DNA of 64,000 nt, taken from the NCBI GenBank assembly GCA_016203225.1, contig JACQNC010000005.1, positions 1-64,000 of the forward strand, read 5' to 3'. This stretch comes from Candidatus Woesearchaeota archaeon. Its GTDB lineage: Archaea; Nanobdellota; Nanobdellia; Woesearchaeales; ARS49. Both the position numbers and the translations under genes were made by a program. This document shows positions 9,511-50,168 of this stretch, piece by piece; the stretch's first letter is position 1; every line of letters starts with the position of its first letter. Under the pieces are notes generated by a model. The model did not search any database and was not told the DNA's origin. It saw only the letters and a program-made list of their open reading frames with translations.

Positions 9511-9993
9511 TCAGCAGGCGCGGGGCGCGTCCACCACTATCGACTTGCCGGAGCAGTATGTGCGTTCTGCGCCGCTGAATATCACCGGCGTGAGCTTAAC
9601 CTGCAACGGTGTGCCGACGCTTTCGTACGAGAACATGGTCTTGAGGGATGATGCCGCATCGAGCGGCTGCTTGAGGACGTTCGGCACGATGCGGACGTCT
9701 GCGCTGCCCGCGATTCGCGCCTGGAGACCGTCGATCGCGAAGGGTCCGTTGTCGAGCGACAGTTCGACGATCGAGTCGCGGACGCACAGTTGCGGCGTGC
9801 CGCTTATCGTTATGAGCTGGAGGTCCACCGCGTCGCACGCGCTGGACGCGACTTCTAGGCCCCCTTGCACGAATGCAGCCTGTTCTTCGACGTAGGCCTG
9901 GCCGTAGCTCATGACGACGGCTCCGAGAGCGACCGAGAACGCGATGAGAAGCACAGTCGCGATTAGTGGAGAGATTCCGCGGTTCCCGAGCAT
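9511..9993 (-). CDS. Archaeal type IV pilin-like/DUF1628-type protein
   Basis: 160 aa. The N-terminus MLGNRGISPLIATVLLIAFS is the archaeal class III signal: a short charged leader, then I-S-P-L-I-A-T-V-L-L and a hydrophobic helix that packs the pilus core. The remainder is Cys-containing (C53, C70, C145, C160 approximately) and strand-rich. A prepilin peptidase is encoded at 13.5-14.4 kb. Promoter TTTAAAGGTTAT (plus strand view) lies about 30 nt before the ATG. Probably an adhesion pilin or minor pilin. Confidence 0.83.
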   Translation of the reverse strand: MLGNRGISPLIATVLLIAFSVALGAVVMSYGQAYVEEQAAFVQGGLEVASSACDAVDLQLITISGTPQLCVRDSIVELSLDNGPFAIDGLQARIAGSADVRIVPNVLKQPLDAASSLKTMFSYESVGTPLQVKLTPVIFSGAERTYCSGKSIVVDAPRAC

Positions 9994-10056: not shown

Positions 10057-10165
10057 AGTTCCCAGGCATCTCGTGCCCAGGCAGTTTGGTGGCTGCATTA
10101 TGGCTTTCGAATTGATTGCGATGAAGCTGCGTCCAACCTGCTTGGGACTGCAACGGACCCTGGGC
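10057..10165. repeat. Element A copy 5
   Basis: GTTCCCAGGCATCTCGTGCCC, AGTTTGGTGGCTGCATTATG, core GGCTTTCGAATTGATTGCGA, right arm CTGCGTCCAACCTGCTTGGG. It lies between divergent genes (pilin and HIT protein). The promoters of both genes sit outside the element. Confidence 0.85.
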
Positions 10166-10220: not shown

Positions 10221-10976
10221 ATGGCCACTGAAGCCGAACTGCAGGAGCAATTGAAGAACATGACCCCTGAGCAGATCAGGGAATTGCAGAAGCAGCAGTG
10301 CATATTCTGCCGCATCGCGGAAGGCAAGGTCCAGGCGCGCAAGGTGTACGAGGACGAGTTCTTCCTGGTCGTGCTGGATATCAATCCCGGCACGCCGGGC
10401 CACATGCTCGTGATGCCGAAGGAGCACTACAGCATCCTGCCGCAACTGCCCGAGGAAGTGATAAACCATCTAGGGATGCTGTCGAAGCGTTTGTCGCAAG
10501 CTGCCCTCCGCGCGCTGAAGGCGCAGGGCACCACGATCTTCGCGGCCAACGGCGTCGCCGCAGGCCAGCGCGCCTCCCACTTCCTGCTGCACGTCATCCC
10601 GCGCATGGAGGGCGACGGAGCCGGCATCACGCTGCCGGCCAACGGAATCTCGGAGGAGATGCTCAGGAAGCTCCAGTCTCAGCTGCAGCCTTTCGTCGAC
10701 CGCGCGTTCGGGAAGGAGAACGGAGAGCCCGCGCCGCCTTTGGCTGCGGAACAATTGCCGGAACTGAAATCGAAACCAGATAAGACTGAATCTGAAAAGC
10801 ACGACAAATCTGCCGGGGGAGTCGCCGAGCATAGCGAGCGCGACGCCGCAGACCGCACGTCTGCGAGCGCTCAAGCAGGGGACGAGAAGAAAAAGGCGAA
10901 GGACGGCAAAGGCCAGAAGCCTAGCGACAAGTCCAATCTCGACGCCATCACTGACTTCTTGGCTGGTGGCAAATGA
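10221..10976 (+). CDS. HIT-family protein lacking the catalytic His (pseudo-HIT 1), with repeat-derived insert
   Basis: 251 aa. A HIT core at residues about 33-140: CIFCRIAEGKVQARKVYEDE, GTPGHMLVMPKEHYSILPQL, and SHFLLHVIPRMEGDG. In active HIT enzymes the last motif is HxHxHxx; here it is H-F-L-L-H, so the nucleophilic middle His is Leu. Residues about 195-222 (KSAGGVAEHSERDAADRTSA) are encoded by an element A-related repeat, inside a charged linker, and the conserved-looking end DAITDFLAGGK follows. TATA TTTATAAG is 25 nt before ATG 10221. It overlaps the next HIT gene by ATGA; the two may dimerise. Confidence 0.85.
   Translation: MATEAELQEQLKNMTPEQIRELQKQQCIFCRIAEGKVQARKVYEDEFFLVVLDINPGTPGHMLVMPKEHYSILPQLPEEVINHLGMLSKRLSQAALRALKAQGTTIFAANGVAAGQRASHFLLHVIPRMEGDGAGITLPANGISEEMLRKLQSQLQPFVDRAFGKENGEPAPPLAAEQLPELKSKPDKTESEKHDKSAGGVAEHSERDAADRTSASAQAGDEKKKAKDGKGQKPSDKSNLDAITDFLAGGK
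10796..10884 (+). repeat. Element A-related repeat inside a coding gene (coding copy 1)
   Basis: Starts with the element A right arm (GCACGACAAATCTGCCGGGG), continues with a middle of about 51 bp containing the hairpin CGCAGACCGCACGTCTGCG, and ends AAGCAGGGGACG like other element A ends. It has no stop in the frame used and inserts about 29 codons into the linker of the HIT protein. The same middle recurs at 52477-52566 with one mismatch. Confidence 0.85.
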
Positions 10977-11500
10977 CCGACTGCGTCGTCTGCCAGCAGG
11001 TGGAGAAGAAACTCGGCGTCGTGTTCGAGGACGCTGATATCGTCGCTTTGCTCTCTCCCACGCCTGCGTCGGCTGGCCACATCATCGTCGCGCCGCGACA
11101 GCACCACGTGATCCTCGAGCAGGTGCCTGACTGGATAATGGGCAAGCTCTTCACGACGGCGAACAAGGTCTCGATCTCGCTGTTCGAGGGGTTGGGCGTG
11201 CACGGCACCAACCTCTTGATCCAGAACGGCGCTGCCGCCGGACAGACCGCGCCGCACGTCTCGGTGCACGTCATCCCGCGCATGGAGAACGACGGCATCG
11301 ATCTCCTCTGGCAGCCGCGGCAGCTCGGCGAGGAGGAGATGAGCACCATCGAGCTCAAGGTCAAGGAGGAGACTAAGGGTTTGACGCTCGAGAAGGAGCC
11401 CCCGAAACCCAAGACAGAAGAGCCGAAGCCCAAGAAGGTCGAGTACTCGCTTTCTGACGAGGAGAATTATCTCATCAAGAGCCTGAGAAGGATCCCGTAG
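10973..11500 (+). CDS. HIT-family protein lacking the catalytic His (pseudo-HIT 2)
   Basis: 175 aa. HIT core: DCVVCQQVEKKLGVVFEDAD, SAGHIIVAPRQHHVILEQVP, then APHVSVHVIPRMENDG. The HxHxHxx triad reads H-V-S-V-H, so the nucleophile is Ser rather than His. The C-terminal 50 residues are a Lys/Glu/Pro linker ending in a short helix. Translationally coupled to the preceding pseudo-HIT gene. A third HIT gene at 47.8 kb keeps HAHLHVIPR intact, so this pair is a diverged, probably non-hydrolytic, nucleotide-binding branch. Confidence 0.85.
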   Translation: MTDCVVCQQVEKKLGVVFEDADIVALLSPTPASAGHIIVAPRQHHVILEQVPDWIMGKLFTTANKVSISLFEGLGVHGTNLLIQNGAAAGQTAPHVSVHVIPRMENDGIDLLWQPRQLGEEEMSTIELKVKEETKGLTLEKEPPKPKTEEPKPKKVEYSLSDEENYLIKSLRRIP

Positions 11501-11514
11501 GACTTCTGCTCTCG

Positions 11515-11620
11515 CGTTCACCGCGTTTCTGCCCAGGCAGGTTTGTAGTGGTGTTATTGCTATCGATTCTGTGCCGATAAAGCTACTACAAACCTGCTTG
11601 GGGCTGAACGTGCAGGGGAC
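11515..11620. repeat. Element A copy 6
   Basis: One of the cleanest copies: CCCAGGCAGGTTTGTAGTGG, core TTATTGCTATCGATTCTGTG, CCGATAAAGCTACTACAAAC, CTGCTTGGGG, outer GTGCAGGGGACG. It separates the convergent HIT and DnaA-like genes and could also act as a terminator hairpin for both. Confidence 0.88.
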
Positions 11621-11625
11621 GTGCG

Positions 11626-13296
11626 CTACTGTCGCGGATGTTGAGCTTCTTTCGGTGTCGGTTTCGGCGCTTGTGTCAGTTGAACGAAATGGTCCGTGAT
11701 TACGCTTTCGATGGTGCGCGTGCGGGGGTTGAGGCGGCCCAGGTCACTGCTTGAATCGAGCAACGTGTTGTAATCCGCGAGTTTCCAACCCAACATGAGC
11801 GCAAGTTTGCGGGGCTCCATTGAAGTTAGCTGATATGCGGTGAGTGCTGCAGCACGTTTGGCCGTGACGCTGCGCACGTCGGTCGCGGACTTCAGGTCGT
11901 CGCGTGTGGGCCTGTTCGCGAGACGTGCAGCCACATCTAGGATTTGGATAACGAGCTTGCTTTCATCGACCGGTTCCTGATGGAGAGATTCCTCTGCCTT
12001 GAGCTCGAGGAGGACGTGAGTGATTGCCTTTGCGTCTTTCCCGGATGCTCCGTATCTGCCCCTGATGTTTGTCACGAAGCGCTCGATATCACGGTAACCA
12101 ACGGCGTTTGCGACAAGGTCCGAGACGAGCTGGAACACAGGATCGCGGTCCTGCTCGCCCTCGCTACGCGGAATTTTTAGGTCCAATCCCGCACCGACCG
12201 CGTTCATGTAAAAGACCTGTATCTTCGCGTCCGTGCTCGGTGGCGAGATCTTCAGCCGCAATCCCTGGCAGATGCGGTTGAACAGCCGCGGCGGTAACCC
12301 TGGTTTGAGCTGTTCCGCGGGCACGTCGCTCGCGATTACGATGCTCTTGTCTTTGCCGAGCAGGTCATCGATGATGCTGTTGAGCTGGTTTTTGGTTCCG
12401 CTGAACGACTCACGGTTCCCCTTAGGGAGCCGTGCGATGTGCTGGATGTCATCAACAATAAGAACATCGAGCATACCGTAGATGCGACGGAAGAACTCCC
12501 ACCCCGGATCGACAGTGCTCTCGTGCACCCCGAAATCTTTTGCGGCGGCAGGTAGTCTTTCCTCTTTTGATTTCCCGTATTTCACTGGTTGGATGACGTC
12601 CTCTACGAATTTCCTGCACGGCACGTAACGGAATGCGAACTTGGAGATGCGCATCAAATAATCAAATTCTGGATCGCCAGGCTTTACACGTGCGTCCGTG
12701 AGGGATCTGATTGCATCGGACGTCTCACGGAATATCCTCCAGGAAAGGCCCTGCAGAAGCGAAGTCTTGCCCATACCCGACTCTGCCTGGATGAAGATGG
12801 TTTGGCTCTGGCGTTCATGCTGAGGTTCGCGCATCCACAACAACAAGTCATCCAGATGAGTGTGGACGATCCGGTTGTTCGAGTCGATGATGAGCCTGCT
12901 CGGGTTCGCATAGCGTCGTTCAAGATGTTGTGCGTTGTATGTCAACCTGTTGAAATACGGATTTAAGATGTTGACCAGTTGCTCATGCGGATTCTGGGGC
13001 TTCTCGATCGGCAGAACGCGAGGCACGCCTTGGGTCTGCCGCCGGTTGATCTTCTCCTGCAGGTCGGCGTTTACGCGGAGGTCGTAACGTTTGCACCCCG
13101 CGTTCAGCGCCGCCTGCCGGAACGGCTCGTCGAAGTCCTTCCTGAACAGTTCAAGGTAGAACTGGTTCGGTACCGCGACGACCATGCAGTCATTCTCGAT
13201 ATCGAACCGGATATTCTCTGTACTGATCCAAACGCGATACCTCTCTTCTGTGAGAAGTTCGCGTAGCTTCTCGTGAATTTTCTCCTTCGCCCCCAT
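11626..13296 (-). CDS. DnaA-like AAA+ replication-initiator homologue
   Basis: 556 aa with the full domain order of bacterial DnaA. Domain I-like: RYRVWISTENIRF ... VVAVPNQFYLELFRKDF (20-55). Domain III: LIIDSNNRIVHTHL (135-148, the sNRfah box), Walker A AESGMGKTSLLQG (171-183), FRYVPCRKFVEDV (222-234), Walker B LDVLIVDDIQHIA (276-288), sensor-1 SIVIASDVPAEQL (318-330), arginine-finger box RLFNRICQGLRLKI (337-350), sensor-2 box GYRDIERFVTNIRG (400-413). Domain IV-like: RSVTAKRAAALTAYQLTSME (475-494) then a helix pair, where DnaA has its DHTTV signature, here replaced by LADYNTLLD. An insertion of about 35 residues sits before Walker B. TATA CTTTTATAG is 25 nt before ATG 13296. Known archaeal initiators are Orc1/Cdc6, so this is exceptional. 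Confidence 0.84.
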   Translation of the reverse strand: MGAKEKIHEKLRELLTEERYRVWISTENIRFDIENDCMVVAVPNQFYLELFRKDFDEPFRQAALNAGCKRYDLRVNADLQEKINRRQTQGVPRVLPIEKPQNPHEQLVNILNPYFNRLTYNAQHLERRYANPSRLIIDSNNRIVHTHLDDLLLWMREPQHERQSQTIFIQAESGMGKTSLLQGLSWRIFRETSDAIRSLTDARVKPGDPEFDYLMRISKFAFRYVPCRKFVEDVIQPVKYGKSKEERLPAAAKDFGVHESTVDPGWEFFRRIYGMLDVLIVDDIQHIARLPKGNRESFSGTKNQLNSIIDDLLGKDKSIVIASDVPAEQLKPGLPPRLFNRICQGLRLKISPPSTDAKIQVFYMNAVGAGLDLKIPRSEGEQDRDPVFQLVSDLVANAVGYRDIERFVTNIRGRYGASGKDAKAITHVLLELKAEESLHQEPVDESKLVIQILDVAARLANRPTRDDLKSATDVRSVTAKRAAALTAYQLTSMEPRKLALMLGWKLADYNTLLDSSSDLGRLNPRTRTIESVITDHFVQLTQAPKPTPKEAQHPRQ

Positions 13297-13373
13297 GAAG
13301 AACGGGCGCGGTTGTCGACTATAAAAGATTATTGCTACTGGACAGAAGCGTCAAAGGAAAGGCGCATATGTGC

Positions 13374-13481
13374 TCGTTCCCAGGCTAAACGAACCCCGGC
13401 AGGTTTGTGGTGGTACTATGGCTATCGAATCAGTACCGATGAAGCGACGACAATCGTGCCGGGGGAGAAATGCGCAGGAAT
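13374..13481. repeat. Element A copy 7
   Basis: CGTTCCCAGGCTAAACGAAC, CCGGCAGGTTTGTGGTGG, core GCTATCGAATCAGTACCGAT, right arm GACGACAATCGTGCCGGGGG. It lies just upstream of the DnaA-like gene and downstream of the prepilin peptidase gene. Confidence 0.86.
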
Positions 13482-13495
13482 GCGATTGCGGGAAC

Positions 13496-14353
13496 TCAGA
13501 ACCAGGCCAGCAAGAAGGGATTTCCTATCATTAGAGTGGCGATGAATGCGAGGAGGAAGCTCGGCACGAAGGGGATGCCGTCCTTGACCTGCACCTTGAG
13601 TGCGTGTTTCTTGGCGTATTCCTGGAGTTTGGCTATCTGTTCGTTGGTGATGCCCAGATCCTTCGGTCCCGTGATGCGCTTCCCCGCGACGATGACATCC
13701 TTGTTTATCCAGTCGCCTTCGGTGAGCTTGTCCGGCGTCACCCAGCGTAGCATGCAGGACTCGGTAGCCTTGGTGAACAGGAATGCGTAGACGATGAACG
13801 GGAAGAACACGGCGAGGATGAGGAACGCGATGCGCGCCAAGGCATCATCGACGAAGAACGACAGAGCGCCGAACGCCAGCAACAGGACGATGGCCGCGAT
13901 GCGCGCGATTATGAACGTTCGCGCCTTGGCCAGCTTGGTGAATGCGGGCACGAACTCCTTCTTGTTCCGGAGCGCGATGATACCGACGCTCACGATCCCG
14001 TACAGCGCGCCCATGAATAGCGTGTTGATGAGGAACGCGACCCCTACATGGTCGAGCCGGCCCTGCAACCCGAGGAGGCTGCCGATCGCCATCATGGCCT
14101 TGGCATCGCCGCCGCCCCACTGGCCGCCGTAATACATCAGGAATCCCAACGGCACGAACACGCCGAGCCCGAACGCGAGGTCGAGCAACGGATGCCAGTC
14201 CCACGCGACGACCGCGGCGACGAGATGTATCCCTACACCCGCCGCGATGCCAGCGTAGTTCAGCCAGTCAGGCACTTCGCGCGTCTTGAAGTCGGTTATG
14301 GTGCCGATGACAAGAAGGACCCCTACGACCGCGAGCGCCATCAATTCGAGCAT
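13496..14353 (-). CDS. Prepilin/preflagellin peptidase (A24 family aspartyl protease)
   Basis: 285 aa, about seven membrane segments. First catalytic Asp in GTITDFKTREVPDWLNY (residues about 17-33); second in GGGDAKAMMAIG (about 80-91), the GxGD motif of type IV prepilin peptidases. It removes the leader of pilin-type proteins such as the one at 9.5-10 kb. The C-terminal half carries an extra loop (residues about 205-255, DKLTEGDWINKDVIVAGKR) before a last membrane helix, as in archaeal FlaK/EppA relatives. It is the last gene of a three-gene operon. Confidence 0.9.
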   Translation of the reverse strand: MLELMALAVVGVLLVIGTITDFKTREVPDWLNYAGIAAGVGIHLVAAVVAWDWHPLLDLAFGLGVFVPLGFLMYYGGQWGGGDAKAMMAIGSLLGLQGRLDHVGVAFLINTLFMGALYGIVSVGIIALRNKKEFVPAFTKLAKARTFIIARIAAIVLLLAFGALSFFVDDALARIAFLILAVFFPFIVYAFLFTKATESCMLRWVTPDKLTEGDWINKDVIVAGKRITGPKDLGITNEQIAKLQEYAKKHALKVQVKDGIPFVPSFLLAFIATLMIGNPFLLAWF

Positions 14354-49096: not shown

Positions 49097-49855
49097 ATGC
49101 CAAAACTTCTTCCCCGTGGTACGAAACAGGAACTTCTTCAACAGATTACAAACGGCAATTCGATAAATGCTATTGCGCGAAGTCTTCATCTCGGAAAATC
49201 TACTATTTACTACCACTATAAGAAAATCCGCGGGAGAAAGAACAAACCGCCCCAATTCAACCCTCAAGCATCCGAAGCGGAAGGAGAGATCTGCGGCATT
49301 TTTGCGGGCGATGGAAGCCAATATTTTGAACCAAAAAAATTTCATTATGAAGTGAACGTCCATTTTGGCGGGCACAGAGAACCGTATGCGCGGTACGTCA
49401 AGTCCCTATTCGAATCATTCTTCCATAAAGAGTTCCGATTGAGACGAGAAAAATCTGGCGCGCCGAGATTACGGACGCAAAGCAAAACGATCTTTTGTTA
49501 TTTCAAACATTATCTTGAATACATTCCTCAACACAAACACGACACGGTCCAGCTCAAAGAACGGACTGCTTCCCCCGAGTTCAAGAAAGGATTCCTGCGC
49601 GGACTCTTTGATACTGATGGTTGCCTTTGGAAGGATGTCACGAACCGAAGGCTTCGGGCATTTTACTATACGACCTCCGAAATACTTTCCCGACAGACAA
49701 TCCAAATGCTCGCCGAATTCGGGGTTTCAGCGACAAAACACGTCCGATTCAAGCCCGGCTGCAAGCCTATCTTCGTCCTGCAATTCGCTACGCGCTCCAT
49801 CGACACATTTTTAAAGCACGTGAAGCCGTTCAAAGCCCGTTGGGCCGGTAGTTAA
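49097..49855 (+). CDS. LAGLIDADG homing endonuclease with N-terminal HTH
   Basis: 252 aa. N-terminal helix-turn-helix SINAIARSLHLGKSTIYYHY; first LAGLIDADG-like helix EGEICGIFAGDGSQYF (Asp ligand), second FKKGFLRGLFDTDGCLWKDV (Asp ligand), each starting a homing-endonuclease half. Codon use and base composition are more A/T-rich than neighbours, suggesting transfer. Its last five codons (RWAGS stop) lie inside the tRNA-Ala(GGC) gene that follows. Free-standing, not in an intein or large intron. Confidence 0.9.
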   Translation: MPKLLPRGTKQELLQQITNGNSINAIARSLHLGKSTIYYHYKKIRGRKNKPPQFNPQASEAEGEICGIFAGDGSQYFEPKKFHYEVNVHFGGHREPYARYVKSLFESFFHKEFRLRREKSGAPRLRTQSKTIFCYFKHYLEYIPQHKHDTVQLKERTASPEFKKGFLRGLFDTDGCLWKDVTNRRLRAFYYTTSEILSRQTIQMLAEFGVSATKHVRFKPGCKPIFVLQFATRSIDTFLKHVKPFKARWAGS

Positions 49856-49935
49856 ACCCGGTATAACGCGCCCATGGCATGCGACACAATCGCCCATCTT
49901 GGGTGAGGCTCGGGGTTCAAATCCCCGCCGGTCCA
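49842..49935 (+). tRNA. tRNA-Ala(GGC) with 20-nt intron
   Basis: Acceptor GGGCCGG/CCGGTCC with the G3-U70 pair, anticodon arm CGCCC-ATGGCAT-GGGTG (anticodon GGC) after removal of the intron at 49880-49899, T-arm GGGG-TTCAAAT-CCCC, discriminator A. The junction is a perfect bulge-helix-bulge: ATGG/CCAT flanked by CAT and CTT bulges; cutting after the second base of each leaves intron position 37/38. The 5-prime end overlaps the endonuclease gene by 14 nt; its TATA (TTTTAAAG at 49808) is inside that gene. Confidence 0.93.
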
Positions 49936-50168
49936 TCTAGTTTTTCTATCAGCGTGTTTGGCGATCGGGACTGCCGCCAAGACGCAATCGTTGTGCTGAA
50001 GAATGTTAGAAAAAAAGTGGGCACACATACAAAAAGGCCCCGTTGGTCGATGTTTGTGCTGGACAAACCACACGCGAAGTGATTTAAATAGTTTTCGATT
50101 GTGCATAAGTAGGGAAAAAATTTATAACCGGGGTTTCCGTAAATCCAGTAAAAAAAGGAGGTCTGTCT

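Follow-up and report, generated by a model that had tools for sequence, protein, structure and literature searches.

A DnaA-lineage AAA+ protein, probably acquired horizontally, in an archaeon that carries two Orc1/Cdc6 genes and a genome-specific palindrome family

A 556-residue protein encoded in the genome of an archaeon is, judged by its sequence, a member of the DnaA lineage, with a relationship to DnaA well beyond chance. We think it probable, though with real reservation, that it is a horizontally acquired and repurposed ATPase, accessory in one archaeal species and possibly acting on palindromes dispersed through the same genome. In reviews, DnaA is the bacterial origin protein and Orc1/Cdc6 the archaeal one (PMC5333045, PMC7617429). 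The initial annotation had stated that no archaeal DnaA is established, and our search of open-licence papers was consistent with this, as no report of one was found. The DNA analysed here, called the window, covers the initial 64 kb of contig C11, which is 111,777 bp long and belongs to a 1.0-Mb genome.

Results

Relationship of the protein to DnaA

The open reading frame of 556 aa that had been noted at 11626-13296 is real, and its coding strand is the minus strand; the plus strand is closed by stops over this interval. The gene and the parts of its product are listed below.

11626-13296, minus strand: gene of the DnaA-lineage AAA+ protein (P0001), 556 aa (NCBIfam, Bac_DnaA, domain I hhalign)
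13072-13296, minus strand: domain I (residues 1-75), DnaA_N, helix-strand-strand-helix-helix-strand in the model (Pfam, model, hhalign)
11983-12894, minus strand: AAA+ module including the lid (roughly residues 135-438); relative to bacterial DnaA, it has two insertions in the segment from Walker A to Walker B (TIGR00362, alignment, model)
12760-12789, minus strand: Walker A, AESGMGKT (alignments)
12442-12465, minus strand: Walker B, VLIVDDIQ (alignments)
12274-12276, minus strand: R341, the box VII arginine finger position, in LFNRICQGL (invariant alignment column)
11629-11982, minus strand: helical C-terminal region (residues 439-556, 118 residues) in the place of domain IV (helices in models; homology undetectable)

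The proposed relationship to DnaA was borne out by several comparisons. The NCBIfam DnaA model (TIGR00362) matched the protein with E=3.2e-26 and 92.4 bits, a score well short of the equivalog cut-off of 343.9 bits. In a six-frame scan of the genome, this model aligned as two colinear pieces, covering model positions 2-167 and 192-315. The match to Pfam Bac_DnaA (PF00308), which had been suggested as a check, was above cut-off (E=2.5e-11), and that to DnaA_N (PF11638) fell slightly below it (E=2.5e-4, 21.1 bits; cut-off 24.6). The best PDB matches by sequence were DnaA, and the identity to a DnaA of the Bacteroidota type was about 24% across the alignment. The Hda model scored 33 bits and the DnaC-like model 13 bits, compared with 92 for DnaA. 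A helicase-loader ATPase of the DnaC/IstB type, which the initial annotation had named as the competing assignment, was rejected on this difference and on the presence of domain I.

Domain I was supported independently by hhalign (E=4.2e-7 against a profile of six bacterial domain I sequences). Within the AAA+ module, Walker A, Walker B, sensor 1 (IVIASDVP) and the Arg finger aligned with bacterial DnaA as had been described. The basic residue of sensor 2 did not hold up, since the Lys or Arg of DnaA is replaced by Asn in the alignment. This change makes ATP hydrolysis by the protein uncertain; an Arg two residues beyond the Asn could possibly provide a shifted sensor-2 role, as far as the alignment indicates. 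What was reported before as a single insertion of 35 residues is more accurately two separate ones, both located between Walker A and Walker B.

The helix-rich C-terminus had been read as domain IV, and this reading was not sustained. The region had no match to the DnaA C-terminal domain in Pfam, hhalign gave E=0.14 with a wrong register, and with an HMM built from 112 DnaA-C fragments it scored no better than shuffles. The absence of DHTTV was confirmed, the aligned residues being DYNTL. The term full-length is therefore too strong, as domain IV is not detectable. Because the domain IV and equivalog cut-off tests both failed, we file the protein, on its sequence, as a DnaA relative rather than as DnaA.

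The comparison of a predicted structure with DnaA, also proposed at the outset, gave a similar picture. All of the top 11 PDB fold matches of an AlphaFold model built from a four-row alignment (pLDDT 62.6, pTM 0.50) were DnaA; the alignment contained DnaA rows, so this agreement is only partly independent. The single-sequence AlphaFold model had a pLDDT of 36, and its C-terminal helices were predicted at very low confidence.

The archaeal contig and the inserted gene

The genome is 96.5% complete and 0.71% contaminated. The same contig encodes aEF-2 (925 bits, above the archaeal cut-off), EF-1alpha, eL8, S28e and an S10 of the archaeal/eukaryotic type. The DnaA-lineage gene lies 11.6 kb inside this 112-kb contig, between the following features.

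9511-9993, minus strand: archaellin/type IV pilin N-terminal domain gene, an archaeal marker left of the insert (TIGR02537)
10221-10976, plus strand: second HIT-domain gene, conserved (profile match, gene order of relatives)
10973-11500, plus strand: HIT-domain gene, the conserved left neighbour (profile match, gene order of relatives)
11501-13495, no strand: inserted stretch of 1995 bp between convergent genes (gene-order comparison)
13319-13326, minus strand: TATA-like box (TTTTATAG) at 23-30 nt upstream of the ATG, like those of other first genes in the window
13496-14353, minus strand: type IV prepilin peptidase-family gene, the conserved right neighbour (profile match, gene order)

The product of the last gene is nearest to archaeal FlaK and scores under the equivalog cut-off. 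The contig is thus archaeal, as are the genes to either side of the DnaA-lineage gene, and contamination is very unlikely, in agreement with the earlier view that this is a genuine archaeal sequence. The host is a small-genome archaeon, which we infer to belong to DPANN. Two other observations were made in the window. Between 20359 and 25579, a small gene pair, one member encoding a membrane protein and the other a soluble protein that starts with an IYVSVNRP-like sequence, appears by eye in two to three diverged copies. A tRNA-Pro (TGG) gene of 97 nt at 49841-49937 probably contains an intron.

The convergent arrangement of the HIT-domain and prepilin peptidase genes is common to many members of the family. 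The gap between them is 1995 bp here versus 10 bp in a genome of the same genus, and ranges from -18 to 674 bp in eleven others; the DnaA-lineage gene was found in this gap in none of the other genomes compared. Its codon usage was the most atypical among the 36 genes of the window, with the lowest score, at 3.3 SD under the mean, and a GC3 of 0.68 versus 0.82. The outlying codon usage, the lack of an archaeal homologue in the order and the 10-bp junction in the genus-mate make it probable that the gene was acquired horizontally. Between -45 and -20, TATA-like boxes preceded 9 of 38 first genes including this one, against 0.8 expected. With its box about 27 nt before the ATG, the gene is predicted to be expressed in archaeal style.

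Distribution

The survey of related archaea that had been proposed yielded no homologue apart from contaminant-like dnaA genes. A tblastn search that covered 145 genomes from the order and 371 from the phylum found none, except for a match in one genome (G025) to a bacterial-looking, contaminant-like dnaA on a short contig. When all 353 genomes of the order were scanned with TIGR00362, the remaining stronger matches likewise all came from bacterial dnaA genes or fragments that look like contaminants. Those in G025, G202 and G342 (L003, L004 and L005) are bacterial dnaA genes on contigs of 3-10 kb, and the match in G087 (L006) is a DnaA fragment at a contig end; none of the four was accepted as another archaeal DnaA. 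On two of the three dnaA contigs, the adjoining bacterial-looking genes are ones that we take to encode YidC and the ribonucleotide reductase small subunit. Such dnaA contamination in archaeal metagenome-assembled genomes (MAGs) could be misread as archaeal DnaA. By their length, we took the many weak matches to TIGR00362, in reading frames near 400 or 760 aa, for Orc1/Cdc6 and further AAA+ proteins.

Searches of viral, phage, plasmid and GTDB sequences gave no close homologue of the protein. Pattern scans of IMG/VR, which reach close relatives only, found no relative, PHROG gave no match, and the phage and plasmid matches were only to ordinary bacterial-type DnaA. The DnaA-lineage gene is thus accessory, was seen in a single species and is not a general archaeal trait.

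Three unrelated DnaA-like arrangements came up during the searches. Many DnaA-C-like DHTTV motifs occur in IMG/VR contigs (L100-L219) in proteins too short for a full DnaA. In a Gemmatimonadaceae MAG, a single protein (L223:453-2393) apparently contains two DnaA-type AAA+ modules in tandem. A protein of more than 600 aa (L008:1-1833, contig C53 of genome G264, 59% complete) contains a DnaA-C-like helix-turn-helix (RSDHTTVSHG), and its other end resembles a sigma-70 family factor.

Replication machinery of the genome

Two genuine Orc1/Cdc6 genes are present in the genome, on C6 (419 bits) and C13 (170 bits), and Orc1/Cdc6 genes are present in the relatives too; this answers the earlier call for a survey of Orc1/Cdc6. 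Both are matched by TIGR02928 (Orc1/Cdc6), and the DnaA-lineage locus is not among the matches of this model in the genome. A full MCM gene lies on C6 (297 bits). No DnaB helicase was recognisable in the genome, where the only DnaB_C match was partial and weak (20.5 bits), and DnaA boxes in the window were at chance level. The replacement of Orc1/Cdc6 by the DnaA-lineage protein was ruled out by the two genuine genes. Given these genes, the full MCM and no recognisable DnaB, the protein is an extra and not a substitute initiator. Bacterial-style initiation is argued against by the lack of recognisable DnaB, DnaA boxes and domain IV. On these grounds, the name initiator used in the initial annotation was not upheld.

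A dispersed palindrome family

An imperfect palindrome of about 75 bp was located with a sequence model at about 80 distinct places in the genome. The core consensus of all copies is roughly CCCAaGCAGGTTtGtaGtgGc.TtAt.GCtaTcGAaTCgAT.gCgaTaAagC.ACgtCAAaCcTGCc.GGG. The remaining 25 genomes of the family yielded no copy, and neither did the 352 remaining ones of the order, for which the scan used stricter filters. The palindrome is specific to this genome and occurs on C13 as well as C11, which links both contigs to the same organism. The copies nearest to the DnaA-lineage gene are as follows.

13394-13473, plus strand: copy upstream of the gene, starting 97 nt before the ATG (79.2 bits, the second best in the genome)
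11532-11609, plus strand: downstream copy, in the same orientation, 16 nt past the stop codon (72.9 bits)
10076-10147, plus strand: nearest further copy

The start positions of the other window copies are 1650, 4324, 7064, 7257, 25580, 25707, 31699, 33684, 35842, 40521, 46747, 56404 and 59804, and all 16 window copies are intergenic. The two copies that flank the gene are direct repeats with 76% identity across 85 nt. At this identity, they do not represent a recent composite insertion. The distribution in the genome is uneven, with 24 copies on C11 versus 8.9 expected, 4 on C13 versus 14.1 expected, and none on 135 kb of contigs that include C6, where MCM and one Orc1/Cdc6 are encoded. The densest 14-kb stretch of palindromes in the genome adjoins the DnaA-lineage gene. 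As 14 of the 37 window gaps of at least 75 bp contain a palindrome, the chance of two flanking copies is roughly 14%.

A structured RNA hairpin was rejected as an explanation of the family, because 28 copies showed no covariation above shuffles and there was no Rfam match. No transposase partner or RAYT-like gene was found in the genome. RAYT/IS200 elements were not supported as the source either, as the only strong Y1_Tnp match was an IS200-type gene on C2 that has no palindrome. This 7-kb contig (L097) carries an IS200/IS605-type TnpA with an adjacent TnpB-like frame, unrelated to the palindrome. For archaea, a survey reports TnpA of the IS200 type only (PMC6006769).

Discussion

The 556-residue protein resembles bacterial DnaA in the order of domain I, linker and AAA+ module with lid, and in its Walker A and B motifs, sensor 1 and box VII Arg. 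It differs in having no detectable domain IV, in the DYNTL that stands for DHTTV, in the Asn at the sensor-2 basic position and in the insertions between Walker A and B. Its setting also differs, an archaeal host with Orc1/Cdc6 and with neither recognisable DnaB nor DnaA boxes. Hda, a DnaA relative that is not used as an initiator, shares the DnaA-type AAA+ module; however, Hda lacks domain I and the C-terminal region found here, and its model scored below DnaA. Archaeal Orc1/Cdc6 belongs to the initiator AAA+ clade and shares the archaeal host, but the protein lies outside the Orc1/Cdc6 matches. The palindromes recall REP sequences with their RAYT genes (REPtrons), in that many imperfect palindromes are dispersed in intergenic positions and a single-copy gene lies between two of them. 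In contrast to REPtrons, the palindrome measures about 75 bp and not 20-40, the gene encodes an AAA+ ATPase instead of a Y1 transposase, and the genome has no RAYT-like gene that could be found.

By analogy with DnaA, the protein would bind ATP, and may self-assemble through domain I and the Arg finger. As its box-reading domain cannot be recognised and the search for a DnaB helicase found none, it would neither read DnaA boxes nor start chromosome replication through DnaB loading. Its most likely role would be that of an ATP-controlled DNA-binding protein with a C-terminal domain that recognises another sequence. The species-specific palindrome family, with two copies that bracket the gene itself, is the best candidate target, because gene and palindromes are confined to one genome and lie together; this co-occurrence is correlative and hints at such a role weakly. 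At the palindromes, the protein might act as an initiator or maintenance protein of the mobile element that brought the gene in, or alternatively as a regulator of the DNA that carries them.

The structure of the insert, which is almost exactly repeat, gene and repeat with two direct copies, could also reflect the capture of a gene that served a plasmid or virus in its replication or maintenance. In that case, a circle with the gene and one palindrome would have recombined with a resident copy and left precisely this arrangement in direct orientation. Foreign codon usage and presence in one species only are in line with such a capture. However, the two copies have diverged, and the searches of IMG/VR, PHROG, phages and plasmids returned nothing beyond ordinary bacterial-type DnaA, so we regard capture as possible yet on the whole unlikely. 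The ATPase and the palindromes might instead form one new system, either a DnaA-type initiator with an origin-like module that spreads its sites or a chromosome-wide binding network of a repurposed DnaA; this seems doubtful to us. A transferred bacterial dnaA that is decaying by drift, an inert passenger, would account for the altered sensor 2 and domain IV and for the atypical codon usage. It is harder to reconcile with an intact frame of 556 codons, with catalytic motifs kept in a very diverged sequence and with a TATA-like box at the usual distance, and appears quite improbable.

Origins usually lie beside initiator genes, and the palindromes adjoin a gene whose product still has domain I and domain III, including Walker A/B and the Arg finger. 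On this basis, the protein might be considered a functional initiator of the DnaA type, firing an extra, non-Orc origin and recruiting MCM instead of DnaB. We give this reading low probability, as DnaA boxes are not enriched, domain IV is unrecognisable, Orc1/Cdc6 and MCM are on other contigs (C6 and C13), and the gene is absent from all relatives searched. An assembly or binning artefact that joined bacterial sequence into an archaeal contig would have precedents in the true bacterial dnaA contaminants of the order (G025, G202, G342). Those lie on short contigs, whereas this gene is well within a long one, with conserved archaeal gene order on both flanks and archaeal markers on the contig. 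It is also flanked on both sides by genome-specific repeats that occur on other contigs, and it has no close bacterial match; a contaminant or chimera was rejected on such grounds, and an artefact is hardly credible.

Our preferred reading remains a horizontally acquired and repurposed DnaA-lineage ATPase. DnaA has so far been regarded as strictly bacterial, with Orc1/Cdc6 as its archaeal and eukaryotic counterpart. The presence of a DnaA-lineage protein alongside Orc1/Cdc6 and MCM in one cell offers a natural test case of whether a bacterial initiator ATPase can function in the replication context of an archaeon, or be put to a new use there, and the genome-specific palindromes provide a concrete candidate target for it.
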